Source of the DNA: Tritrichomonas foetus
Lineage: Eukaryota > Parabasalia > Tritrichomonadida > Tritrichomonadidae
Reading direction: 5' to 3'
Length of the DNA: 64,000 nucleotides
NCBI GenBank assembly: GCA_001839685.1
Contig: MLAK01001149.1
Location: 62,471-126,470 of the forward strand
The notes under the pieces were generated by a model. The model made no database searches, was not told the DNA's origin, and worked only from the letters and a program-made list of their open reading frames with translations. Shown here in pieces: positions 349 through 18,457 of this stretch. The first letter of the stretch is position 1; each line of letters opens with the position of its first letter. Position numbers and translations under genes: made by a program.

Positions 349-3300
349 TTATTCATCATGATATTGATCATCATGTTTATTTTTGTTATTGGTAAAAATA
401 TCAAGAAAATCTTTTTGCGCGTTTATAAACAAAACAAATAAATTTACTTCTTCGGCACTATCTAATTGAATATTGATTAATTTATCATCTTGTGAGGATT
501 TGAGAGTTACTGAAGACATGTTTGTATTTAAGATTTCAAATTGATTTAAGTTGTAATTTGATTTGATTGACATATCATTTTTTAAAGTGAATAATTTACA
601 ATAAGTAATACAATAATATTCATTATGTTCAGTTGATTTTAGAAAGAATACAATCTTTGATCTGTGACCTGGTTCCTGTTTAAAAATGTTCTTCTGAATT
701 TCATCAAGATTGACTAAATTTTCGGTATTAGAAGTCAAAATAGGCGTTACCTTTGGATTTCTTGATCGCTCAACATTTTCTACAATTTGAGCATCATTTA
801 CTTTCTTTGAGATATTTTTTCCAAAAATACAATTATCAAATTGATAAATTTGAAGGTATAATATATTTCCATTAATTATTGATTTGATTATTTCTGATTC
901 TTCATTCAAGTAAATATTTAAATAATTCAATAAACTTTCTAATGATAAACCATTAAAATAATTCGCAACAATTTTTTGATTATCATATATCGAACGATTA
1001 ACATTATCTCTGCGAGTATTCATGATTGCTTGAAAATTAATTTTCTCAAAATTAACAAAATTAAGCCAATCTACAATACCATAAACAGAATACAGCAATA
1101 CAGAATCTTTGGAAATACTATCAATTGCTGAATTTCCATAAAACATAACTAGTCTTTCTTGTAGCATAGAAACACTATTATTAAAATTATATAAAAACAA
1201 ACTCGGAAATTCAATTGTTTTTCCTTTTGATAAATTCAATGTCCATAAAATAAAAGAATAAATTGAACTTTTGACACCTTCTTCATTCACTTTTACAGAG
1301 GCATAAATAGATGATATTTCAGCCCATAAAATGTGAATTTTATTTTTACTTATTGATTTATAAGCAGGTTGTAAAACATTGGGAAATTTATCAGATTTTT
1401 TAACCTTTTTATTTGATGAATTATAGAAATCAATTAATTTCCAAATAAATTTCATATCTAAAAAAATATGTATTGGTTGAATATTTAAATTGAAATATTC
1501 AATAACTGATAAAAAGGGAATACCTCGTGGAAAAATGGATGAAACATAAATGAAAGGATTAATACCAACATTTGGTCCATATAAAAAAACTGGATACGAT
1601 GGTGAAAATGATTGATCATCAAATTGAATTGATTGGGTGGAAAATGTCATAATTGATTTTTGATTATCTTGTTTCACATTTACTAAAACTTTATTGATTG
1701 AAAGCAGGGCAAATTCTCTCATATCTCTATTAAATAATGAAATATATATTTGATTTATCGATAACATGAAATTAGCACTTTGTTTAAAACCAAATATTTG
1801 ATTAGAATAATGAACAAAAACCATTTTCTGATTTTGGCCTGTGACAATAAGTTCAATAATAATTTTGTTATCATCATTATCAACAATTGGAGCTATCTGT
1901 TCTTCTAAAGAAAAAGTATATTTTCTTTCTATTATATCATTAACATGAATAACAATTTGACTGTTTAAAAATGGCTGATCGAAAGCAAAAATCGATGTAG
2001 ATGATTCAACAATTTGAGTTTTACGCCCAGAATCGAATTGACTTACATAAATTGACGATTTTAAAGAATTATTTATCATAAAAGGTGTAGGAAATAGTGG
2101 ATTTCGAAAAGTTGCATAAAGAGTTGATTCTTTTTCGATAATTTCTAATTCAACATACAATATTTGATCTTTATTGATCATAGAAAACACTGTTTTTGTG
2201 GGACGAGATAAATAAATAAAAGAAATAGATGAAAATTGGAATATTGAAAACAAAAATTTTTCATCATTTGGAATCCAATCAATAAGAACTTTCTGTCCAC
2301 AACCAATAAAAAAAGGTTCTTTTAATAAACTGTCATTCATTTTCGTAGGTGAAAGAAAAAAATCATACATTAATTCATTAATAACGTATAAATATGAGGT
2401 AAATGTGATAATATGAGTAAGATTCATTTTCCCTTTTCCCATGACATTAGAATAGTTTATTGGAGTTAGTAAATTTTCATATTTTGAGCTTTGTAGATAT
2501 ATTGTTTTTGAAAGAGGACATAAAATTTTACAATCAATCACATTTTTTCCTTCAATACTTTGGCCTTCAATTGTGATATCAAGATTGGTTGATTTAGATT
2601 TTTCAAAATATGTTTTGGGTCCATAAAAAAGTATTGAATTTGGTAACATTCTATGATTTGGCGAAATAATAATTGTTTGTGATGATTGATTAAAAATAAC
2701 ACATGGAACATAAATAATAATGTTTTTTTGGTGTTTCAAATATTGAATATATATAGCTAATTGGTATGATTCTTCTTCAAAATCAAGAGAAATATTATAT
2801 GAATAAAGTGAGTTGGGATTTAATGCAATTTCAGTACTTTTACCAAATTTAGATGAATAACTTAATGCCATATTTATTTTTTCAGAATTTTTATTGATGA
2901 ATGATAATGGTTTCTTTTCACCTGATTTTACAGATATATTATTGGTTGAATTATTTTGAATGATTTGACAATAAATCATATTATTTTGAATAGAAAAAGG
3001 AATAGAATTGATGATAAATATAGTAGGCACAATTTTATATACTTTACTATTTGATTGTGAATTAAACTTTGGAATAATTTGATATTTTATCTCCATTCCA
3101 TCGGTTACAATTTTGATATCGTTGGGATAAGAATGGGCTGAAAAAGTGTAACATTCAGGCTTAATTCCAGAATTAATATTGGTCACAAAAATATAGCTGT
3201 TCTCATTGAAGAAAATTGGATGTTTATACCCTGGCATTAATTTTATATATTTAATGAAATTTGTTGATCCTTTTGTGTTAATGTAGATGAAAAAGGGGAA

Positions 3301-3891
3301 ATCAAGTTTGTTTTTTATAGAAAGAAGTGAAGAAAATTCTATTGATAATGAGCTATGATACTTAATTAGTGAAACAGAAAAGTTATCACAATACAAAGGG
3401 AAAATTATATTTTTTGGAATAATTTTGAAGTTTTTATTGCTAATTTCAATGTTTAATTCAGAATCTTTTTTAATCTGAAAAATTGGAATATGATCATGAG
3501 AATTTATTATAAATTCATGTTCATTATCACATGTTAATTTAATTAAATCATAAAGATTATTATGAATCCAATATTCAGGATCAGTTGAATTTTCGTGCTT
3601 TATCATAGCTGTGTCATTTTGATTATGAAATTCATCAATGATTTGGTAAATGCTATTTAAAGAGTCTGTAGAAAAATCAACATTAATGTTATCAATAATC
3701 AATCCAAAATTAGTGGTATTAACATTGTTGTGATCATAAGTGAGTGTAATTTTTGTCGGGGAAAGGAAACTATCAAATTTGCTACGAACAAAATTTCTAT
3801 GATAAATAGAAAAAAGTTCTTGTATAACAATATACTTATCATTTATTTCAACATTCCAAGAATCTAATAAAATTTTAAATAACGAATTATA
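349..3891 (-). pseudogene. VPS13/chorein-family lipid transfer protein, C-terminal segment of a broken gene
   Basis: This is the C-terminal part of a large VPS13-like protein. VPS13 proteins are rod-shaped bridges that move lipids between membranes at contact sites. The frame ends with TAA at 349-351 and stays open through 3703-3891 up to the mariner, giving about 1,180 residues. No ATG opens this segment: the apparent start at 3700-3702 is TTG, which shows it is an internal piece. The sequence is rich in short beta-strand-like blocks with a PH-like tail, as expected for the VAB/C-terminal region of VPS13, although no single motif is diagnostic. The assignment rests mainly on collinearity with the chorein-type N-terminus at 6498-9257. 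Across the mariner, a simple one-TA excision model does not bring this segment into the frame of the upstream piece. Confidence 0.7.
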
Positions 3892-3920: not shown

Positions 3921-5179
3921 GTATAATAAAGTCATTTCTAATAAGTCATTTTTTATTGATAAGTATTTCAAAATATGTAGTCTCCATTGGCATCAATAAC
4001 TTTTTTCAGTCTATTTTGCCATTCTGCAAAAACTGAAAACAAAGTTTCCGATGGAATTTCATTGAAAATTTGGACTATTGTTTGAATCAAATGGCTTGGT
4101 GATTCAAAAACAATTCCTTTAGCTTTTTCTTTAATAGTTCCAAATAAAAAAAAGTCGCTAGGCGCCAAATCAGGTGAATATGCCGGATGTGGAACTGATT
4201 CTAGTGAGTTTTCATTTATATATTTTTTGACAATTTTTGCCACATGAGGCTTTGCATTGTCATAATGAACAAATAATTTTTTATAATTATTCGAGTTTTT
4301 AAACTCAACAATTTTTGACATAATGGCTGTAATATAATATGCAGCATTAAACTTTTCATTTGGCGGCAAAACATCAATATGAATTATCCCATGAGGGTTC
4401 CAAAATACAGTCACCATAAATTTAGTGATCTGAAACCCTGGATTTTGAATAGTTGGGATTACTGAGTTTTCAGGAATCCATTGTGTATTGAAATCAGTCT
4501 TGGAATAAAACCAAGACTCATCTCCTGTTATTAAAAAGGTGAAATTAGTTTTTTGTTCTGCATTCAAAATTTTAAGAAGTTTTTTTGCCAATAAAACTCT
4601 ATTGGCCTTTTGATTTTCTGTTAGAATATGTGGCACCCATCGAAGATGCACATGTTTATACATTAATTTTGATGTTAAACGATCATAAATTGTCGATTTT
4701 GGTTCACCTAAAACATTAGCAATATATCGACACGATGAATGTGGAAATTCGGTTAAAACATCTAAAATTTTCCAGTCAAGAATATCATAACTTTGGCACT
4801 TTTTCTCTTTTTTCACAGGCTGTGTGTTTTGACTTCTGTTCAGTTCTGCCATGACTCGGTAGATTTGTCTTTGAGACAAACATTTTTCTTTCAAGACACT
4901 CTTCATTTCTTCATATATTTCTTTGCCCCTTTTTCCTTCAAGCTGCAGAAAAGTTATGATTGAATGTTGATCAATCATTTTTTAATAAACGTGCATCGTG
5001 TACGTTTATAAATTATTCTTTTTTTTTATGAAAAAGATTCTTTATCTCTATTTTCAGTCAAGAGAAAAAAAAATTGTTTTCAAAATTTTTATGTTAACAT
5101 TGCATAGTTTATTATTTATAAATATAATGTATTGATTTCACTTCTAATGTGGGTAGTGACATCACGCCTCCGGACACCC
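3894..5179 (-). mobile_element. Complete mariner-family DNA transposon
   Basis: The element is about 1.29 kb and is bounded by inverted terminal repeats that both start AGGGTGTCCGG and share GTGATGTCACTA after a four-base variable block. TA dinucleotides flank it at 3892-3893 and 5180-5181, as expected for mariner target duplication. It carries one intact transposase gene on the minus strand. It is inserted inside the VPS13-like gene. Trichomonads are known to carry a mariner (Tvmar1 in Trichomonas vaginalis) of similar size; kinship to it is inferred, not computed. The uninterrupted ORF and well-matched ends suggest a recent insertion. Confidence 0.93.
3968..4978 (-). CDS. Mariner transposase (DD34D), intact
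   Basis: This 336-residue transposase cuts and pastes the surrounding element. The N-terminal about 110 residues form the paired-type helix-turn-helix region that binds the terminal repeats. The mariner hallmark WVPHIL follows, matching the family WVPHEL linker. The catalytic triad is visible: the first Asp in TGDESWFY, the second in VHYDNAKPH, and the third in YSPDLAPSDFFLF. There are exactly 34 residues between the second and third Asp, which is the canonical DD34D signature. The start is ATG at 4976-4978 and the stop is TGA-free up to 3968. Length is typical of the family (about 340-350). No frameshift or internal stop is seen, so the protein could be active. Confidence 0.95.
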   Translation of the reverse strand: MIDQHSIITFLQLEGKRGKEIYEEMKSVLKEKCLSQRQIYRVMAELNRSQNTQPVKKEKKCQSYDILDWKILDVLTEFPHSSCRYIANVLGEPKSTIYDRLTSKLMYKHVHLRWVPHILTENQKANRVLLAKKLLKILNAEQKTNFTFLITGDESWFYSKTDFNTQWIPENSVIPTIQNPGFQITKFMVTVFWNPHGIIHIDVLPPNEKFNAAYYITAIMSKIVEFKNSNNYKKLFVHYDNAKPHVAKIVKKYINENSLESVPHPAYSPDLAPSDFFLFGTIKEKAKGIVFESPSHLIQTIVQIFNEIPSETLFSVFAEWQNRLKKVIDANGDYIF

Positions 5180-5180
5180 T
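5153..5180 (-). repeat. Right terminal inverted repeat of the mariner
   Basis: Read on the minus strand it is AGGGTGTCCGG, AGGC, GTGATGTCACTA, matching the left end. The TA at 5180-5181 is the right copy of the target duplication. Confidence 0.9.
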
Positions 5181-5181
5181 A

Positions 5182-6497
5182 TAATTATTTGATTGTCTAT
5201 TTTCTTTGCATAAATATAGTGAAATACTATCAACAACAAAATACTGAAAATGTAAGTAGCTTTTTTTCTTTTCTTCATAATATAGACTTCTGCAAGTTGT
5301 CATTGGAGATATTGATCTGATAATATTATCAAATATAATTTGTAACTCTACCATGTCGATAATAGATAAATATATATTCAGTGGACCAGTTTCAATTGAT
5401 ATATCATGTCCATTTTTTAGAGTTAACTTTGCAGAAAAATCAGATAAAACTGGTAAAAATTTGACTCTGCTTTGAATTGCAGAAAAGTATATATTAGAAA
5501 CCTTCACAAATAATTCTAATGAACCATTATTAGAATTCATAATTAAATCCAGAGACATAGTAAGATCATGCTCTTTAAATAAAACATCATCAGGAAAAGG
5601 GAAATGTAAGTTAACATCATGAAGAATACATTGAATCATTGGAAAATCGTTGAAATTTGTCTGGTTTGAATCTGGTTTGATTACATCTTTTAGGGATAAA
5701 AACCAAGATTTAAAAGATTTATAAAAACTAATATATTGTATAATTTTTTCTATATCAAGGAAAATATCAAATTGAGAAAAATGAATTGTTATATAATTAT
5801 TATCGAAACAAATTTGAATAAAATGAGTTGGGTCGCAAAGAACAGTTTGATGAATTATATTAGATTTGATTTTCCCAAGTTTAAAATGAAAAGATTGCTT
5901 AATTTTATCAAAAGTAACATCTTGTAGAATGATAGAACCAAAATCACTTTCTTGAAATGTAAAAGAGTTTAATTTGAAATGTAAAATAAATGATGTGTCC
6001 GATTCATTTTCTTTAGAAAGTGAATTGTTGACAGATTTATTTATTACATATGCTTTACATGCTTGAGTTATTTGAAAATAAAGTTTATGTGTAAATTCAA
6101 GATTAATATTGTCTACTTGAAAATTTAATTCATTTTCTTTCAAAATGATATAATTTTGTTGAGCAAGAAAATAATCACTAGAAATCAATGGAATGTTAAT
6201 CATAATCAATGAATTCGAAGGTATATAAGAAATTTTATTGTCATGTGAATTTAGAAATAGGCTTGTAACAGATTCCTTAATGCTGATGGTTTTGATCTTA
6301 ATATCATATCTGGTCATATCAATACTCTTTTTATTTTGGAATTCACTATTCTTACTATTATTTTGTGAACGAAAAATATCCTTCAGGTTATAAAGAAACA
6401 CAAAATTATCAGGTGAAGTTAAAACATCAATCAATTTTATATTGATTTTGTTCTTGTTGCCATTTTTTAGATAAAGAAAATTGGAAATAGTAAACAA
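5182..6497 (-). pseudogene. VPS13/chorein-family protein, middle segment of a broken gene
   Basis: About 438 codons are open between an in-frame TAA (6498-6500) and the mariner end. The segment is in the same frame as the N-terminal piece, directly after the TAA, and its first codon is TTG, so it is a continuation and not an independent gene. The frame runs a further 23 codons into the mariner terminal repeat before stopping at 5112-5114; those residues are transposon sequence and not host protein. Content is the same extended beta-strand style as the flanking segments, consistent with the hydrophobic groove of VPS13. Without stop readthrough it would not be translated. Confidence 0.7.
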
Positions 6498-9257
6498 TTA
6501 GTCAATAAAAATTTGGTCAATGATAATATTGGTGCATATTTGATTAGAAATTTCTAAATGTGAATTGGATAGAACCATTAAACGATTAGCATAACTGATC
6601 TTGATTCTATTTACTTTTACAGTAATAAGATTCTGTAAGTCATCTTCTTTGTTTACAACATATGAACTTGGATTTATGTGACTGTTTTGTCTGTGCTGAT
6701 CATTTGTAAAGTACTGGACGATACATAAATCACTATATGAAAAATTAATAAATATACAATCTAAATTAAATGAAAAAATATTCTTTTTGTCTTGACTGCA
6801 ATATAAAATCTCAATATTTTTACTAACATTTAGTATTATTTTATCATTTGAGTTTCTAATCTCACATGAATTCAAAATAATTTTAATATATTCACCAGCT
6901 ATTAGTTCAAGTTCTCCACAATTGATAAAATAATTATTTTTCATGTTATATATAATATTATGGGAAATAATTCGAATTTCATTATTGTTTTCATTTTGGG
7001 GCTGTTCTTCCATATTATCTGTTTTCTCTGAAATAAAATAGGCTTCATATAAAGAAAATAACTTTGATGATATCCAAAAAGAATCATCTAAAAATTGATA
7101 AAACTCATTTGAATCTAAATTAATATGAATTGAATTAGCAGTGAAAACTGACCATTTGTCAAAAGTAAGAGAAGGAATACAAACAAGTTCATTTTGATTA
7201 GACATGATTTTAAAATGTTTCAATCTCATTTTTGGATTTAATTCTATTTCATACAAGTTTAATAGTAACAAAGAATACCCAGTATTGAAATTCACAGAGA
7301 TATCGGAACAATTCGCCGTGATTTGATGCGAGCTATAAGTTTTTGTATTTTTATTTGTTTTCAATTCCTTTAATGATTTTAAAAGACTTGAGCATTTATC
7401 AATTACCAAATTATCAACATTTATATTCACATCGAAAATATAGAGATTGGTTTGAATATCATCAACATAATAATATTCGTTAATACATCCTTTTGTAAAT
7501 GATTTAATGGAACATTTTTGGAATATTATTAAATTATCAATTATAAAATCACCTAAAAATATCTTCATTTTAAAATTTATTATTTTATTCGTAGAATCTT
7601 TCGAATAATTTTTGATTTCTATTTTATGAATTTCCCCATGAAATGAATGAAATTCATCTACCGAATATTTTGCATTGATTCCATTTAATATTACTTTAAA
7701 TTGTTTTGAAATATTAGGATTTATTGCTTGGAGATAGTTATTTGTATTACTACTTTTGACTTGCTTTTGATTATTTGGAGAAACTATGAAAGAAAAATAA
7801 TGGATTAATGTTTTTAAAAACTCATGATTTAAATCAACATACAATTTGGCTAATATTAAAGAAATTGGTTCATTTTTTGATGAAAAATATAATTGAAGTA
7901 TATTTGGAAAATTATCATCAACACGTACGATATGCTTTTTAGTAACTTCATTAAAGATATTGAATTCATTAAGTAAAAAATTAATTATAAATGCATTTTT
8001 GTCACTCGTAAAATTGAAATAAAAGTTGTTTGTAACAAAATGAACCAATGTATGAATCTTAAATGAAATCGCTTGGATTTTGAAAACCAACTGGAATGAA
8101 TCTTTCTGAAAGAAAACAGTATCATCTGAAGTTAATGTTTTAATTTCACTTTCTCTTAATTTAATTAATCTTTTTCTTTGGTGATCAATTGCTAAAGCAT
8201 ATTGCAATAATAAAAAAGTTAAATCTTCTCCATATTTTTTAATTGATTTATTCACAAAACTTTTTATCATAAGTGATTTTAGATATTTTTGGGTAAATTT
8301 ATTTCTTTTTTTCAAAAACAAAATTGCTTTTTTAATTCTAAAATTATGAGGTCTTCGAATTTTTAAGGCACATCGATAAAAGTAATGCCACATTTTTTCA
8401 TAATTGGAATTTTTTGGCCGAATGCACATCACAAATTTTTGACGAAGTTTTATTTTTGTAATTTGTTTACAAATTAACCAAAAATATTCAAATTGCGTAT
8501 GATTGATTTCTAAAAAGATTGGATCAAAATTAAGTCTAAAAATATTTAAGAATTTGGCATTTTTTGAACGTTCATGAATAACATCAAATGAAAAAGTACT
8601 TGGAAACAGAAAGTTATATTTATTTTGGTAATCATTTGAAACTGATTCATGTGAATTTGGAAAAAATGACAATGAAAATGATTTCATTAAAATTCTTTTG
8701 CATAAAACTTCAGGATTTTCTTTCAGGAAAATCATTTTTCCATTTTCATCTGATGTAAACATTGTAAATTTTTCAATAAACAATACAAAAAGGCATTTTT
8801 GATTTTCTAACGGAATTTCTATTTTAATTGTAATATTTTCAATATCAATTCTGGCATTATCACAGATTTTTTCCATCCAGCTGTTCCATGCATGATGCTT
8901 TTCAGATTTTGAAGCTTCTTTTTCATCAGCAATTGATTTGAGAAGACTTGCTATAGAATTTATTTCAACTTTATATAAAACATCCCAATCAGGTTTTGCG
9001 AGTAAATCCATGTTTTGGATTTTCAAGTAAGCTGAATGACTTCCTTTTTGCAAAAAAGGATAATCAATAACCATATTTTCAATATTATTTTGCAAAATTT
9101 GAAGAGGAATTCCAAAATTGGTCAGAATATCTGGTTGTAATGACACATTATGTAATTCAACATGACCATCAAAAGCTTTTGTTACTATTTGTGTCTTTGA
9201 TACCTGCTGAATGTACCTATCGAGAAATTTTGATATAATTCTTGAAATAAATGCCAT
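6498..9257 (-). pseudogene. VPS13/chorein-family protein, N-terminal segment with chorein domain
   Basis: This 919-residue segment starts with ATG at 9255-9257. The first about 100 residues fit the chorein_N domain: a helical start (SRIISKFLDRYIQQV), then FDGHVELHNVSLQPDIL, then a PLQIL/IENMVIDYPF block and a statement-like line ending LLAKPD. This mirrors the start of human VPS13A. The domain scoops lipid at the donor membrane. The frame stops at TAA 6498-6500 and continues immediately in the same frame for another 438 codons. The whole gene would encode about 2,500 residues, near the usual 3,000 of the family. The premature stop plus the mariner make it a likely pseudogene, although a truncated 919-residue bridge could still be made. 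Confidence 0.8.
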
Positions 9258-11724: not shown

Positions 11725-11796
11725 TCCGACGTCGTTCATCGGTTAGTATACGTGGTTTTCATCCACGGGAGCGGGGTTCGACTCCCCGCGTCGGAG
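11725..11796 (+). tRNA. tRNA-Glu (anticodon UUC)
   Basis: The 72 bases fold as a complete cloverleaf. The acceptor stem pairs TCCGACG (11725-11731) with CGTCGGA (11789-11795), discriminator G. The anticodon stem CGTGG/CCACG (11751-11755 with 11763-11767) encloses loop TTTTCAT with anticodon TTC, which reads Glu codons. The T arm pairs CGGGG with CCCCG around TTCGACT. The D arm contains the A-box-like GGTTAGTA; one D-stem pair is a mismatch. The internal B box GGTTCGACTCC is intact. The 3' end is the target of the retrotransposon that follows, and the last 16 bases of the gene are repeated after that element. Confidence 0.95.
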
Positions 11797-11805
11797 AAAT
11801 TTTTT
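11781..11805 (+). repeat. Left target-site duplication of the retrotransposon
   Basis: The 25 bases start in the T loop of tRNA-Glu (ACTCCCCGCGTCGGAG), then AAA and six T. The same string recurs at 18432-18457 with seven T. The bases before it differ (G versus A), which fixes the left limit. Confidence 0.9.
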
Positions 11806-11814
11806 CGTTTTTTT
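11800..11814 (+). terminator. RNA polymerase III T-run terminator of tRNA-Glu
   Basis: Six T residues start four bases after the tRNA discriminator, then CG and seven more T. Runs of four or more T terminate Pol III. The first T run is inside the target duplication; the second is at the element's 5' edge. Confidence 0.6.
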
Positions 11815-11830
11815 GCAGGAGCCTTTTTAC

Positions 11831-14800
11831 ATGGATATACCTACATATTCTGAATCTACTCCAGACAAGCTTTCTAATGATGCTATTCTCACCGAATTTC
11901 GTGATATTTTTTCAATCGAATCTCCAATATCATACGAGACATCTCACACTTCAGAACAAATACAACTATTCTCAGACTCGCTGTCACCTAATCTATCTAT
12001 TACACCGAGCGTTCAAACTAAACTACATTCGCTTCCCAGTTTTTCAGTTGATGCAGATTCGCAATCGTCCGACAGCCTTCTAAGTCCGCCAAATTACTTC
12101 CAAGACCGAATTTTCAACAACATGGAGTACAATATCATCGAAAATCCGCGACTTTCACCCACTGATATATATCTCGAGATTCAACATTGGGCCGGGAACT
12201 TTAAAATTAACAGAGATACTGGGCTTTTCTTAAGAGACTGCGATATCGATGATATTAATTACGATGGTCTCTTATTTTTGGACGAAAAAGATATGGGTTT
12301 AGATAGTACTGATGAAGCTGAATCAGATAGCGGTGCGGCCATAATTGCATTCAATATTACGGATAGTTTTGTCTCTCAATTTGACTCAGATCTCCCTAAT
12401 GATATGATATTCACGAATGATGATTCCTGTTCCTCTGGTCTATGCTCACTAGACATTACTTCTCGACTCCTTAATATCTCAAATGATGCTACACATGATG
12501 ACTTAGAGAATAGTGACAACCAGAAAGATATTTCATTTAATGTTTTTTTACCACCTACAAATTCTACTTCTCTTCCCCCCATAGAGAACTGTAATCCAAG
12601 TAGGTCTATTTATGTTACAGATTTTAATACAAATGATATTGAAAATTCTGAAATCAATAATAATATTAATAATTCAAATTCATTTTGTAAAGATAAACAA
12701 ATTTTATCAATAGATTTTACTAATTCATCACAAACTGTTACATCTAAAATCATTGAAGAGACTAATGATAATTCGAATGATGATATCGTTCCAGTCAATA
12801 CTACTTCGAACAATATCAGTTCAGTGACTAGTTCAAATACTCCAGTTGACGATTCTCCGGAGATTAAGAATGAGGATATTCACCCAACTTCTGGAACATT
12901 ACCTATAGTCGAGTTTCCTCTTGATGAGGATGATTCACTCAATCCTTTTCCACATAATCGAAATACTTCTGCAAACAGTGCTCTTCAAAAGATTCATGAT
13001 GAATTTCAACAGAAACTACAATGTTATGATCAACAGAACATGTTAATGCTTTTACTTCTTTACCAAAATCAGCAAATGAATGAAAGCAATAAATGTGAAC
13101 TTAATCAACAGATAAATCATATGTTGTCAATAATTGACAACCAAAACGCACAAATCCAATCAATGCATTATATGTTTTCCCAGGTGATGGAACACAATCT
13201 TAATCATTTGGTTACTCAGCAGAACCATATTGCTCATGTCGGGTGCAACAGTGTTCTAGATCATCGGCTAACATGTAATAAAGCTATGGATGATGTAAGC
13301 ACTCGACTACGATCAGAGTTTAACGACATCATCCTCAACCAATTAAACTTTCAAAATCGTGTTATTGAGAACTGTTTCTTTACTCTTTCACAAACAGTCC
13401 AGACTCTTCTAAATCAATCTCAACATCCAATATCTACTCCACATCTTAATAACAAAGTGAACTGTGACAGCAACTGCATGCTGAGCTATGCCCCCCAGGA
13501 GAACATGCTCTGTTCCTGTGTCACTAATGTGTCTAATCCGCAAGTTCCTATTTGTTCACATAATGAACAGCATTCCACACAAACTTCTGATGGTATCATC
13601 GTCTCCCACAATGTGCATGGTTCAGATGACAATTCATTTCGTTCCAATCCCAACTCCCCGTCAGGGTCAAGCGAGGATGGATCTCCTCCTAATCCTTTAC
13701 CCCCTGATGATAGTGAGCCCTCCCAAGAGGATAACCAGACCCAACTCAAACAGAAGATTTATTCACAGCTCAGCTCTGTGAATTCTGTTGAAGAGCTTAA
13801 CAGCCTAATTCACACTTGGATCGAAGAAGATATAATTGACACATCTCTCAATGAAGATGATGACCTTCTTATGGGGATGTATAAAACAAGAAACTATGTT
13901 TTTGGAGGTAAATTTGCATGTCCGCATGCAAACTGCTTTTGCTCTGTCAATACTGCCGCTAAAAGGAAGACACATATTTTGGAGAAGCATGACAATAGGA
14001 ACATCAACCCACAAATCAGCATTCTAAACGCTATTCTTGAGACGAAATTAGTGTTTAAATGTAATAACATCAAACTCATCCCATTCTTTTGCATGGAGAG
14101 AGATTGTGGTGCATTGTTCGAAGACGGAGAGAGCTTACGCAACCACATTACCAACGTCCATCGCAGCAACTCATCCCTGACTACCAAATTTGGATGGTTT
14201 TGGGGGCAGTTGATCGGTATTGCCAGGAGCAATAATTATGCACCTGGAATTCATAATTTTACTGCAGAAAGATTATTATACTGTTGCAAACAGAACGACT
14301 GCTTTCGGACATCGAGGGCTGCAATTTCCTCTCATATCGCTCAGTCCACGCGCCCAGACCACTCCAATGCTAGGGTGGCTGGCTTCGGCTCCTATGTCAT
14401 ACAATCGAATCTTATTGTGACCAATGAAGATATTGATGCAACTCAAGAAGCAAGCGAGATAGAACATCGTTCCGCTCCGGGTACTGATGTATCGGATGAT
14501 GGTGAAAGGTTACATGACGAAGCTATATGTAGTGAAGAAGATCACAATGAAGGAACTCATAACGTCTCCCTTCGCTCGGATTCAGCTAGATCATCAAATG
14601 TAACTGGGATCGCTCCATCTTTTGATGAAGATGAATCCGATGTGCTTAGGACTAATGACGCTGGTCCGGATGCTTCATCGCGTCTTGGGGATGCGGTACA
14701 GAGAAGGAATAAGGCACTTCGTTGGAGGATGAAATATAAAATATTAGAAGAGAGTGGTATCAGTACTCCATATCTCAACAAAGCGTTTAGATCACGTGTG

Positions 14801-17800
14801 AAGAAAGGGTTAAGCGATTTGTACAAGAACAAGATTATTCCGCTGTTGGAAAGTTACTTTCCTTCCAATGAAACGGAAGATTGCTGGTTCCAATTTGAAG
14901 GTGCTCTCTTCAAAGCCACACACATTTTAGCGAAACATACCTTACATTCAATTGGCAAACCGAAAGAAGCACTTTCTAAGAAACCACGACTTGTTAAAGA
15001 CTACATTAAGATTCTCAATACCGCTGCACAACATAACAAAGACATCAACTCAGCTGTGAAACTGACTAAGTTCATTCGGGAATACGATTCCTTGTTGAAG
15101 GCTAACACCGATAATGAGACTACTCGAAATTCACTCGGTCGACTTGAGGACATTATCATTCATGTTGCTGGCAGTTGCAATGATGAAATCTTGAGGCACT
15201 TTGGAGTCGGTGATTCACCTGACACACTAAGAGGTTTCGTCAGTCAATCGGAGGAGTGGAGGTCCAAGGCCCTTGAATGGCTCACAGATTATGCTAACCA
15301 CCTCATGAACCTCAAAAGTGAGAAGATCACAAAGCATGAAATTAAAAGATGTCAAGAGCTTTACGATGATAGTCCCCGTAAAGCTATGCAAAGATACGTT
15401 TGGCCAGATGCATATCCATTTTGCGATATTGACATTCGCAATGTTGAAGAACATTTCACTAACGATTGGTCATTTTCTCCACAATTTCAAGAAGCTGATC
15501 ATGACTCAGTATGGCATCTGGATCGCATCATCGATGAGGAGGATATGAAACAATTCTGGATCGACTTTATTGATGAGAAGGAGATCATGAAGATTGTTCA
15601 AGATAGAAATCCAGCCTCGTCACATGGATCGGATGCTCTTTCAAATGCTGTTCTTTCTCTGGAACCAAAACACGCTGTGAAATTCATACTTATCTTGTTG
15701 AAAGCAATTAAATGTACAAAGAGAACACCAGATAACTGGAAGCACAATAAGACCATTCTCTTGTTCAAGAAGAATGATTCTTCAAAGATTAATAATTGGA
15801 GACCGATTACTGTCACATCGGTGATTTACAGGACTGTCATGTCCCATATCGCACAATGTTTCCAGAAGCTCAATGATCGCTGTACATATATTTCACCTGA
15901 GCAAAAAGGGTTCAGGCATCTTGTCAATGGATGCTTTAATCACACTGCNNNNNNNNNNNNNNNNNNNNNNNNNNNNNNNNNNNNNNNNNNNNNNNNNNNN
16001 NNNNNNNNNNNNNNNNNNNNNNNNNNNNNNNNNNNNNNNNNNNNNNNNNNNNNNNNNNNNNNNNNNNNNNNNNNNNNNNNNNNNNNNNNNNNNNNNNNNN
16101 NNNNNNNNNNNNNNNNNNNNNNNNNNNNNNNNNNNNNNNNNNNNNNNNNNNNNNNNNNNNNNNNNNNNNNNNNNNNNNNNNNNNNNNNNNNNNNNNNNNN
16201 NNNNNNNNNNNNNNNNNNNNNNNNNNNNNNNNNNNNNNNNNNNNNNNNNNNNNNNNNNNNNNNNNNNNNNNNNNNNNNNNNNNNNNNNNNNNNNNNNNNN
16301 NNNNNNNNNNNNNNNNNNNNNNNNNNNNNNNNNNNNNNNNNNNNNNNNNNNNNNNNNNNNNNNNNNNNNNNNNNNNNNNNNNNNNNNNNNNNNNNNNNNN
16401 NNNNAGCTTACGCAGACGATATTGTATTGCTCAGTAATTCGGAAGAGGGATTACAACGCTTGCTGGATGTTGTTTCAGAGTTCTCAGGCTTCTCTTGTAT
16501 TGGTGTTAATCCAAGTAAATGCGCTATTACTTCTTATATTCGACAGAATCGGAGCAGAGTACGTTCTGCTTTCCCTTTCTCAATTCATGATGAGGAGATT
16601 CCTCACATTGACATAAATGAGTTCAAGGAATACCTTGGCGCTCCGATTGCGAGATCACATGTCGTTAACCTCTTACATACTGACAGGTTGGTCGAGGAGT
16701 TGACCAACAAGATCAACTTAATTTTTAAGTCGCCTCTTCGAATAAATCAAAAGGTTGACGCTCTGAAAAGATTTGTCATTCCTTCTATGGACTTCGAGAT
16801 GCTGACAAATTCATTTAGAGCGAATGACATGATCAAACTCGATAAACTCATTCGTTCTCTGGTAAACAAACATATCAAACAGTTATCCACTCCTATACCC
16901 TTCTTTCACACTTCTTGGAGGGATGGGGGACTTGGCATTCAATCTCTACATGAACGTCTCTACGCATTTCGGCTTAAGCAGTGCGGTGAAGTCTTAACGT
17001 CCACTGATAACCATACAAAACAACTTTTCTCAATATGGTTGGAAGAGGAGGAGAGGCTTCGCAACATTGCCAAGGCAGATGATGACGATGTTTCCACGTT
17101 CCTTGACTGGAAGGTTAAATCGGATGGCTCGCTGGATCAATCCCATAACGGAACAGATTGTATTTTCATCAGAGCTTTTAAGGCAACACGAAAACTTCGC
17201 TTAGAGCTGCATATTAGTGAAGATGGAGATATAATTATTTCCAACGCGGATAACAAAGAGAAATTTACTGTACATTCAAAATGTGTGATGCGAAAAATTG
17301 TGCAGATCCTTTACAAACGCTGGCACTCCAAGCTGGTGTCAATGAAGATGAAAGGCCATACATTCACTACACTCTACAACAACAAGATTAGCAATTTTTA
17401 CTTCTCTCCGAGCCCTCCGAATGTTAATGACAACTTGTTATCTTTTACTATTGCTGCCAGATGTAACAATCTCCCCACTGGTGAGGTAATCTCACATAAT
17501 AATGAAACTCCCGAGTGCAGACTATGCAACAAACAACTTAAAGATACTCTTGCTCACAGACTTAATAATTGTGACCCAAAGAAATCGAAGTATACAATTC
17601 GACACAACAAGGTAGTGCAAGAAGTTATGGCATCTCTAAAGAAGGCTTCTCGAATTCAGTTTGTATTTCATGAAAATACTACGATCTCACTCAGGGGTGC
17701 TCCACAGCTTCCTCCTAGCGTTCGAAACCTCAGACCAGACCTTTGGTTTGTTAATCCTGCTAATGGCGTGTTGAACATTGTGGAGGTCACTGTTCCTTAT

Positions 17801-18316
17801 GGACAGATGGATGACAGAACAGATTGTGATCCCCAATCGACTTTAAAGCTGCGTATGGAGGAAAAGCTGCAAAAATACTTACCTTTAGTAAAAGCTGTTG
17901 AAGATGCTATTAACATCAAAGTCAATCTCTATGTCATTGTTGTCAGTTCACTTGGCGCAGTCCCTTCCTCAACTCTCGTTTCGCTCAGAAAATTGCTGTT
18001 TAATAATAAAAGACTTGCTGAGGCCACTGCAAGGAAGATTTCACTTGCTGCAATCCGAGGAAGTGCTTTAATATATTGGAATATTCGGATGAATGCAGGT
18101 GAAATTGATGCCAATGGCTCAGCAAACTTGGGTGATAATGAAGTGAACTCCAGTGATGACCAGGTGATTGACCCGGATGACACTCTCTTTACCGACTCGC
18201 AGTTTGCGACAGACCAGACCAATCATGATGTCGTTGGTGATGTCAGTCCCTTGGGGGAGGGACTTATTCATTTCTCGACATCTGCTTCTGAATATGATGG
18301 TCTAAACGACATGTGA
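11831..18316 (+). CDS. Retrotransposon polyprotein: three zinc fingers, reverse transcriptase, restriction-like endonuclease
   Basis: The protein of about 2,161 residues nicks target DNA and reverse-transcribes its RNA onto the nick. ATG at 11831 is chosen; an in-frame TTG lies six codons upstream. Residues 1-690 are long, Ser/Asn/Asp-rich, with a SAM-like stretch near 110-155 and a Gln-rich helical part near 380-480. Three C-x4-C fingers follow: CPHANC with KTHILEKH (about 695-720), CMERDC with RNHITNVH (about 750-777) and CKQNDC with a His pair (about 815-845). The reverse transcriptase includes SSHGSDALS, a KHNKTILLFKK block, NWRPITVTSVIYR and the catalytic AYADD (16406-16420). Near the C-terminus is CRLC-x9-H-x4-C and then RPDLWF plus VEVTVPYG, the PD-(D/E)-type endonuclease core. 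Motif A of the reverse transcriptase is hidden by the N run, which is in frame. No stop interrupts the known sequence. Confidence 0.93.
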   Translation: MDIPTYSESTPDKLSNDAILTEFRDIFSIESPISYETSHTSEQIQLFSDSLSPNLSITPSVQTKLHSLPSFSVDADSQSSDSLLSPPNYFQDRIFNNMEYNIIENPRLSPTDIYLEIQHWAGNFKINRDTGLFLRDCDIDDINYDGLLFLDEKDMGLDSTDEAESDSGAAIIAFNITDSFVSQFDSDLPNDMIFTNDDSCSSGLCSLDITSRLLNISNDATHDDLENSDNQKDISFNVFLPPTNSTSLPPIENCNPSRSIYVTDFNTNDIENSEINNNINNSNSFCKDKQILSIDFTNSSQTVTSKIIEETNDNSNDDIVPVNTTSNNISSVTSSNTPVDDSPEIKNEDIHPTSGTLPIVEFPLDEDDSLNPFPHNRNTSANSALQKIHDEFQQKLQCYDQQNMLMLLLLYQNQQMNESNKCELNQQINHMLSIIDNQNAQIQSMHYMFSQVMEHNLNHLVTQQNHIAHVGCNSVLDHRLTCNKAMDDVSTRLRSEFNDIILNQLNFQNRVIENCFFTLSQTVQTLLNQSQHPISTPHLNNKVNCDSNCMLSYAPQENMLCSCVTNVSNPQVPICSHNEQHSTQTSDGIIVSHNVHGSDDNSFRSNPNSPSGSSEDGSPPNPLPPDDSEPSQEDNQTQLKQKIYSQLSSVNSVEELNSLIHTWIEEDIIDTSLNEDDDLLMGMYKTRNYVFGGKFACPHANCFCSVNTAAKRKTHILEKHDNRNINPQISILNAILETKLVFKCNNIKLIPFFCMERDCGALFEDGESLRNHITNVHRSNSSLTTKFGWFWGQLIGIARSNNYAPGIHNFTAERLLYCCKQNDCFRTSRAAISSHIAQSTRPDHSNARVAGFGSYVIQSNLIVTNEDIDATQEASEIEHRSAPGTDVSDDGERLHDEAICSEEDHNEGTHNVSLRSDSARSSNVTGIAPSFDEDESDVLRTNDAGPDASSRLGDAVQRRNKALRWRMKYKILEESGISTPYLNKAFRSRVKKGLSDLYKNKIIPLLESYFPSNETEDCWFQFEGALFKATHILAKHTLHSIGKPKEALSKKPRLVKDYIKILNTAAQHNKDINSAVKLTKFIREYDSLLKANTDNETTRNSLGRLEDIIIHVAGSCNDEILRHFGVGDSPDTLRGFVSQSEEWRSKALEWLTDYANHLMNLKSEKITKHEIKRCQELYDDSPRKAMQRYVWPDAYPFCDIDIRNVEEHFTNDWSFSPQFQEADHDSVWHLDRIIDEEDMKQFWIDFIDEKEIMKIVQDRNPASSHGSDALSNAVLSLEPKHAVKFILILLKAIKCTKRTPDNWKHNKTILLFKKNDSSKINNWRPITVTSVIYRTVMSHIAQCFQKLNDRCTYISPEQKGFRHLVNGCFNHTXXXXXXXXXXXXXXXXXXXXXXXXXXXXXXXXXXXXXXXXXXXXXXXXXXXXXXXXXXXXXXXXXXXXXXXXXXXXXXXXXXXXXXXXXXXXXXXXXXXXXXXXXXXXXXXXXXXXXXXXXXXXXXXXXXXXXXXXXXXXXXXXXXXXXXXXXAYADDIVLLSNSEEGLQRLLDVVSEFSGFSCIGVNPSKCAITSYIRQNRSRVRSAFPFSIHDEEIPHIDINEFKEYLGAPIARSHVVNLLHTDRLVEELTNKINLIFKSPLRINQKVDALKRFVIPSMDFEMLTNSFRANDMIKLDKLIRSLVNKHIKQLSTPIPFFHTSWRDGGLGIQSLHERLYAFRLKQCGEVLTSTDNHTKQLFSIWLEEEERLRNIAKADDDDVSTFLDWKVKSDGSLDQSHNGTDCIFIRAFKATRKLRLELHISEDGDIIISNADNKEKFTVHSKCVMRKIVQILYKRWHSKLVSMKMKGHTFTTLYNNKISNFYFSPSPPNVNDNLLSFTIAARCNNLPTGEVISHNNETPECRLCNKQLKDTLAHRLNNCDPKKSKYTIRHNKVVQEVMASLKKASRIQFVFHENTTISLRGAPQLPPSVRNLRPDLWFVNPANGVLNIVEVTVPYGQMDDRTDCDPQSTLKLRMEEKLQKYLPLVKAVEDAINIKVNLYVIVVSSLGAVPSSTLVSLRKLLFNNKRLAEATARKISLAAIRGSALIYWNIRMNAGEIDANGSANLGDNEVNSSDDQVIDPDDTLFTDSQFATDQTNHDVVGDVSPLGEGLIHFSTSASEYDGLNDM
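15949..16404. other. Assembly gap of 456 N inside the reverse transcriptase
   Basis: The N run replaces 152 codons of the reverse-transcriptase fingers and palm, including the first catalytic Asp. The flanks are in the same frame. A gap in the most conserved part of the element suggests unresolved multicopy sequence. Confidence 1.
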
Positions 18317-18431
18317 TGTGAAACACATCAAATAACAATACTTTATTCTTTTTGACTTTTAGTCGTCTCCGGGTAGGTGGATTTATGATGATGACGCCCT
18401 CTACCTTCTCCTACTCTTATGATATTAGTAA
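18317..18431 (+). other. Retrotransposon 3' UTR with possible folded RNA
   Basis: The 115 bases between the stop and the right target duplication can pair GTCGTC (18362-18367) with GATGAC (18390-18395), and GGGTAG (18371-18376) could pair with CTACC (18401-18405), crossing the first stem. R2-type enzymes recognise folded 3' UTR RNA, so this is a candidate binding structure. It ends without a poly(A) tail. Confidence 0.45.
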
Positions 18432-18457
18432 ACTCCCCGCGTCGGAGAAATTTTTTT
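18432..18457 (+). repeat. Right target-site duplication (truncated tRNA-Glu tail)
   Basis: ACTCCCCGCGTCGGAG repeats the last 16 bases of the tRNA gene and is followed by AAA and seven T. It lacks the A box and most of the B box, so it is not a functional tRNA. Confidence 0.92.

Follow-up and report, generated by a model that had tools for sequence, protein, structure and literature searches.

A clade of retrotransposons in Tritrichomonas foetus, a single-celled cattle parasite, very probably inserts at one fixed site in the T-loop of transfer RNA (tRNA) genes. Its members encode a restriction-like endonuclease (RLE), each family uses one kind of tRNA, and the target duplication appears to leave the gene whole. 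We came to this reading from the sequence of an element in a 64,000-nucleotide stretch of contig MLAK01001149.1 (positions 62,471 to 126,470, forward strand; hereafter the window), from its other copies, which form family A in tRNA-Glu genes, and from its relatives in the same genome. Positions in tRNA are numbered with the discriminator base as 73.

Family A in tRNA-Glu(TTC) genes

The genome draft (63.7 Mb, 1064 contigs) was searched with the two ends of the window element. The genome searches scored best candidates only, and copy numbers are lower bounds. The 3' part gave eight copies and one short match to a tRNA end, and the 5' part gave seven copies. All eight copies ended in GATATTAGTAA followed directly by ACTCCCCGCGTCGGAG and then by unrelated DNA. 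The element start, AAATTTTTTCGTTTTTTTGCAGG, was identical in 7/7 copies and stood immediately 3' of the last base of the tRNA. All eight 3' ends and all seven 5' ends lay inside tRNA-Glu(TTC) genes with unrelated flanks. An earlier note on this DNA had proposed site specificity for tRNA-Glu and named the flanks of every copy as the check; this check, when run, placed all family A junctions at tRNA-Glu genes. The ends of contigs C504 and C156, which stop 3 nt past a tRNA-Glu and are 99.85% alike over 1340 bp, probably hold an eighth 5' end.

The target duplication common to all family A junctions was 16 bp (ACTCCCCGCGTCGGAG) and ended exactly at the discriminator base. The earlier note gave 25 bp; such a repeat is present in the window copy, but it shrinks to 16 bp because the extra nine bases (AAATTTTTT) are the element's own 5' end, which resembles the host tail here. 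The element starts at 11797 and not at 11806, as that note had it. The upstream tRNA-Glu(UUC), described there as intact, is a complete gene, but the window copy has a private G-to-T substitution at base 23. The parts of the element are given below in window positions.

11725..11796 (+): complete tRNA-Glu(TTC), the target gene rebuilt 5' of the element (ARAGORN; Rfam RF00005, 45.8 bits)
11781..11796 (+): target duplication copy 1, tRNA positions 58-73 (common to 7/7 5' and 8/8 3' junctions)
11797..18431 (+): whole retrotransposon, 456 N included (ends set by seven 5' and eight 3' junctions)
11800..11814 (+): T6-CG-T7, an RNA polymerase III (pol III)-type terminator for the preceding tRNA (identical in 7/7 5' ends)
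11831..18316 (+): single long open reading frame (ORF), first ATG at 11831 (2133 amino acids in gap-free copy L011, contig C308)
13919..13990 (+): C2H2-type zinc finger 1 (motif, residues 697-720 of protein P0001)
14090..14161 (+): C2H2-type zinc finger 2 (motif, P0001 754-777)
14282..14362 (+): C2H2-type zinc finger 3, with longer His-His spacing (motif, P0001 818-844)
15767..16534 (+): reverse transcriptase (RT) domain, broken by a gap here, with YADD at 16409-16420 (Pfam RVT_1 on the gap-free copy; PDB R2 match)
17516..17572 (+): CCHC knuckle (C, C, H, C invariant in a 17-row alignment)
17597..18094 (+): RLE with RH, PD and K..KY residues (columns invariant or nearly so; R2 fold match over this part)
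18317..18431 (+): short 3' untranslated region without poly(A), terminal TTAGTAA(AC) (RTAAAC type)
18432..18447 (+): target duplication copy 2, an orphan tRNA-Glu 3' half (last 16 bases)
18451..18457 (+): the host's own tRNA terminator (T7), now 3' of the element (T-run statistic over tRNA-abutting 3' flanks)

The single ORF with three zinc fingers, RT, CCHC knuckle and RLE had been read correctly in the earlier note, and was supported by motifs, by Pfam RVT_1 (E 6.8e-32 on the gap-free copy) and by the 17-row alignment. With an RT, a C-terminal CCHC knuckle and an RLE in one ORF, the element is an RLE-encoding non-long terminal repeat (non-LTR) retrotransposon. Family A elements had neither LTR nor poly(A). 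Their 5' and 3' ends differ, and in 8/8 copies an identical 3' end adjoins the target without intervening sequence (by inspection). We infer that family A moves by target-primed reverse transcription. The protein is 49-54% identical to named T. foetus proteins.

In the window copy, an assembly gap of 456 N (15949-16404) lies inside the RT; we take its length to be the assembler's estimate, since copies without the gap are shorter by 84 bp. The ORF is intact in three gap-free copies of 6551 bp. Compared with one of these, the other two show 2 and 14 differences (and contain 2 and 11 N); this near identity indicates recent activity of family A. A 482-bp insertion and a 124-bp deletion in two other copies may be real or assembly artefacts.

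Empty tRNA-Glu genes comprised four TTC and four CTC genes, the latter being all CTC genes found. Family A was confined to one tRNA species, with 8/8 copies in TTC genes and 0/4 CTC genes occupied, and the difference in occupancy (7/11 against 0/4) was suggestive only (Fisher p 0.077). In their 3' halves, the TTC and CTC genes differ by a single base. In the four empty TTC genes, a run of at least five T begins 4-5 nt past the tRNA, as in the element-borne terminator.

Relatives in other tRNA genes and their common frame

Relatives were collected by a protein search of the genome, in which 22 of 133 candidates were scored, and by a second search with a diverged member as query (the C121 reading frame), in which 84 of 90 were scored. 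The latter gave 79 rows, 48 of which matched query residues 1-82 only and were dropped; these 48 probably represent a different repeat upstream of the truncated C121 element. Among the other 31 rows, C235:13567, C463:51559, C315:25297 and C857:15817 were taken as inner pieces and left aside. In total, 25 of the 27 examined 3' ends adjoined the 3' half of a tRNA, always broken at the same place in the T-loop (57-60). Nine tRNA species served as targets: Glu, Ile, Tyr, Asp, Cys, Thr, Lys, Phe and a variant elongator Met.

Family B comprised five copies, at least 99.5% alike in long pairwise matches, and its target was tRNA-Ile. The four 3' ends read all gave TCCCTGCGGGACCA followed by a T-run (the copy on C74, where the contig ends, was left out), and a complete tRNA-Ile stood immediately before the element in the four 5' ends read (that on C581 was left out). 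The family B protein TRFO_08113 (P0219) was 99.86% identical to two copies and 98.99-99.71% identical to the other three. The Rfam list held 11 tRNA-Ile genes, of which four carry family B, one (C235) carries a decayed relative whose 3' end adjoins an Ile half, and six are empty. The pattern TCRAATCCCTGCGGGACCA gave no match, since intact tRNA-Ile has G at position 59.

The single copy on C857 had both junctions in tRNA-Tyr with a 16-bp duplication; ARAGORN reported a 13-nt intron in the tRNA-Tyr(GTA) before it (L056 139-223). Further Tyr halves adjoined 3' ends on C508 (twice) and C463, and a Cys half adjoined that on C582. An Asp half was found at the C284 3' end (the intact end matched at 16 places), a Thr half at C121 (6 places), a Lys half at C1008 (10 places) and a Phe half at C186 (5 places). 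In these four cases, the flank had been recognised as the end of a tRNA before the pattern search, the reversed-pattern controls gave 0 each, and one intact gene of each was typed.

Halves of a variant elongator Met adjoined 3' ends on C751, C113 and C942. The pattern TTCGAGTCACGCTCAAAGCA gave no match, and the Met-like flank is therefore a variant. It reads AGTCACGCTCAAAGCA, against ACTCGCGCTCAAAGCA in intact genes. At L049/L053 (C751) and L064 (C113), an element starts directly after the variant tRNA-Met 3' half, like head-to-tail copies. On C714 (L065), the middle of a tRNA-Met is replaced by A-rich DNA. Three contigs end 15 nt past a tRNA-Met with the same 15 nt and look like further broken 5' ends.

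Counted back from discriminator 73, the 3' junctions fell in T-loop positions 57-60. That of family B could be set exactly between positions 59 and 60, because G59 of the tRNA is missing from its 3' copy; those of the other families were ambiguous by 2-3 bases of matching sequence. A duplication of 14-16 bp is suggested across families. The 5' junctions, where read (seven Glu, four Ile, one Tyr and, by eye, one diverged Ile), lay immediately after base 73, and each element with a read 5' junction started with a T-run. By eye, the 5' end on C235 resembled family B. Of the 25 tRNA-abutting 3' ends, 22 had an RTAAAC-type motif close to the terminus; the exceptions were the first C508 copy and the C186 and C942 copies. 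A run of at least five T occurred within 12 nt after all 25 tRNA-abutting 3' flanks, compared to 4.5% of window 12-mers, a count that is not independent for Thr, Lys and Phe, where the T-run had guided the first choice of target by eye. In family A, the duplication ends at the discriminator and the element itself starts with a T-run, so the upstream tRNA gene is rebuilt with a pol III-type terminator.

In an RT tree of 68 rows, five T. foetus families (Glu, Ile, Asp, Tyr and Tyr) and 24 other proteins, probably metagenomic, formed one clade of 29 rows (support 100/99), hereafter the tRNA clade; the tree had no Cys, Thr, Met, Lys or Phe members. The Glu and Ile families grouped together (100/100), the two Tyr families were sisters (100/99) and Asp was far off. 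This placement suggests that targets were switched more than once within the clade.

Elsewhere in the window, a 336-amino-acid ORF at 3968-4978 (-) resembled a Tc1/mariner-type transposase (by eye). It is flanked by two pieces of a VPS13-like gene, 349-3702 and 5112-9257 (-), into which it was probably inserted.

Contrary evidence, alternatives and a possible mechanism

Several observations weigh against the reading that these elements enter a fixed tRNA site and leave the gene whole. Two of the 27 examined 3' ends lacked a tRNA: C876 has its family's terminal sequence followed by non-tRNA DNA, and C582:1576 is a degenerate copy with no recognisable end. One of 14 bases in the Met-like flank does not match intact tRNA-Met. 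Only one of the 15 loci L042-L056 held a complete tRNA according to ARAGORN; most of the other 14 stop short of the 5' end, and the 5' junctions read do not include the Asp, Thr, Met-like, Lys and Phe families or C508 and C463. At the Cys locus C582 (L059, L055), the downstream flank of the tRNA is present on both sides of the element over more than 100 bp; either the locus was duplicated or the target duplication is unusually long, so the 5' junction is ambiguous. Changes read as stem-weakening were found in two of seven occupied tRNA-Glu genes (the window copy at base 23; C170 at bases 4 and 5) and in none of the four empty TTC genes, and full function of the occupied genes is therefore not assured. 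The T-run before the ORF also speaks against plain pol III read-through.

The clade may already bear a name. We consider it rather probable that it is the lineage of NeSL-1_TV, a tRNA-Pro-specific element in Repbase, and has so far been thinly described. The suffix TV is presumably Trichomonas vaginalis, although the published text does not say so, and the host would then also be a trichomonad. The accessible part of PMC4640811 gives the tRNA-Pro specificity and leaves the position of the element unresolved between HERO and NeSL. Even if true, this identity would add one target to the nine seen.

As to mechanism, we offer a tentative scheme, doubtful as a whole, in which one clade spread over much of the tRNA set. 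The DNA-recognition part would change between families, while the cutting frame from T-loop positions 57-60 to discriminator 73 would stay. A cotranscript of tRNA and element would be cut after base 73 by host tRNase Z, which would create the 5' end of the element RNA and take over the job of the self-cleaving ribozyme of R2. The duplication and the element-borne terminator would spare the host tRNA gene. The first 504 nt of the element gave no ribozyme match, although a diverged ribozyme could be missed; the only match there was a small nucleolar RNA far below the gathering score (E 2.9). The 5' sequence TTTTTTTGCAG followed by G was also considered as a trans-splice acceptor, and was dropped solely because, to our knowledge, trichomonads have no spliced leader.

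The 5' end may have another origin, a possibility that we take seriously and hold to be somewhat short of even. The 5' boundary would then reflect the second-strand cut only, the RNA would start at an RNA polymerase II promoter near the start codon, and the first bases would come from copying of, or annealing to, the host. The 5' untranslated stretch of the window element is only 34 nt, and its first 10 bases equal the tail of the empty tRNA-Glu gene L023, as if once captured from the host; both points fit this origin. However, 7/7 copies share the 5' start base for base, while the host tails at their 3' sides differ. The first bases of the element were therefore probably copied from RNA.

Phylogenetic position and known systems

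The earlier note called the element R2-type. This holds for the fold (RT, CCHC and RLE), which matched R2 over an 831-residue RT-RLE part; the RT, in contrast, falls in a separate clade and is not nested in R2. We regard it as improbable that the element is a true R2 whose target switched from 28S ribosomal RNA (rRNA) to tRNA-Glu. Its ORF layout is the same as that of R2, its best structural matches are all R2 proteins, and the approximately unbiased test kept a clade of R2 and the tRNA group (p 0.255), so the tRNA clade may be sister to R2. However, R2 (13 rows, represented by a bird protein whose match to R2Tg in the PDB scores 1596 bits) and the tRNA clade are separate, each with 100/99, and all family A copies were found in tRNA-Glu, none in 28S rRNA genes. 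In the best tree, the tRNA clade is nearest to Phytophthora elements with RNase H (95/87), a placement that the same test leaves not firm. We take these oomycete rows as Utopia, since they fit the description of oomycete Utopia in the accessible part of PMC4640811.

It is very improbable that the tRNA is cargo of an element that carries its own 5' tRNA (as promoter) and 3' tRNA piece and inserts at random: tRNA and element do stand together at every occupied locus, but a T-run follows the orphan 3' half in 8/8 family A copies, just as one follows empty tRNA genes, and the eight tails all differ; two of the tRNA copies have changes of their own, and sister families carry different tRNAs that match intact genes elsewhere.

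At E<=1, RVT_1 was the only Pfam match in P0001, with no Ulp1-like protease, which is not required of all NeSL members. A ubiquitin hydrolase domain (PF00443) was found beside the RT in 7 of 78 homologues (P0007, P0015, P0019, P0023, P0026, P0027 and P0029), all seven within the tRNA clade in two RT trees. This differs from the Ulp1-like cysteine protease at the N terminus of nematode NeSL and one Utopia. Scans of viral contigs with P0001 and with an alignment gave no matches. On other genome contigs, 30 loci matched, and three were read (L076-L078: CAMWTP010000157.1, CAMWTP010000162.1 and CAMWTP010000188.1). These are filed under a Lachnospiraceae metagenome-assembled genome and encode 34-35% relatives of the element; their presence in a bacterial bin is probably due to contamination with eukaryotic DNA. 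Of the three contigs, one stops at the element's 3' motif, another is truncated within the ORF, and a third has a T-run after a possibly tRNA-like piece; ARAGORN found no tRNA on any of them.

The enzymes of the clade form a natural series: they are related and site-specific, and their targets share one structural frame despite different sequences. Such a series is what is needed to learn how these enzymes read DNA, and possibly to re-aim them. It would also be a clear case of a parasitic element that repairs an essential gene after inserting into it, an outcome similar to that of bacterial integrative elements at tRNA 3' ends. RNA data could answer directly whether tRNase Z replaces a ribozyme in making the 5' end.

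For the chromosome-level assembly of T. foetus KV-1, 377 tRNAs are reported, and long interspersed nuclear elements are listed as a class in the accessible part of that paper (PMC11415386). Among the matches listed in a literature search that covered few subscription papers and no preprints, the accessible texts described no T. foetus elements of this kind, no single lineage over many tRNAs and no frame from T-loop to discriminator. The earlier note knew of no described element with this enzyme set in the T arm of tRNA-Glu. However, the accessible part of Kojima & Jurka 2015 (PMC4640811) reports LIN25_SM in tRNA-Glu, LIN15_SM in tRNA-Arg and NeSL-1_TV in tRNA-Pro, and tRNA-specific RLE elements, even in tRNA-Glu, are therefore not new.

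The planarian LIN families LIN25_SM and LIN15_SM are RLE-type and specific for tRNA genes like the T. foetus clade, and differ in host phylum; they are likened to it by description, not by sequence. NeSL-1_TV, an RLE-type element in a tRNA gene with one target reported, is likewise compared by description. R2 (R2Bm, R2Tg) targets 28S rRNA and not tRNA, whereas T. foetus family A gave no ribozyme match in its first 504 nt and the tRNA is repaired by the duplication. Utopia, of the NeSL clade, also targets a small RNA gene, but that of U2 small nuclear RNA (snRNA), with no duplication in arthropods or 20 bp in reptiles according to the accessible part of PMC4640811. Some Dada elements lie inside tRNA or snRNA genes, but they are DNA transposons with 6-7 bp duplications (PMC8869645, accessible part). 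For the dictyostelid elements TRE5, TRE3, NLTR-A and DGLT-A, too, tRNA genes serve as safe harbours; their insertions lie outside the tRNA at a distance of about 2-100 bp, as given in the accessible part of PMC5006619, whereas the T. foetus clade inserts inside it.

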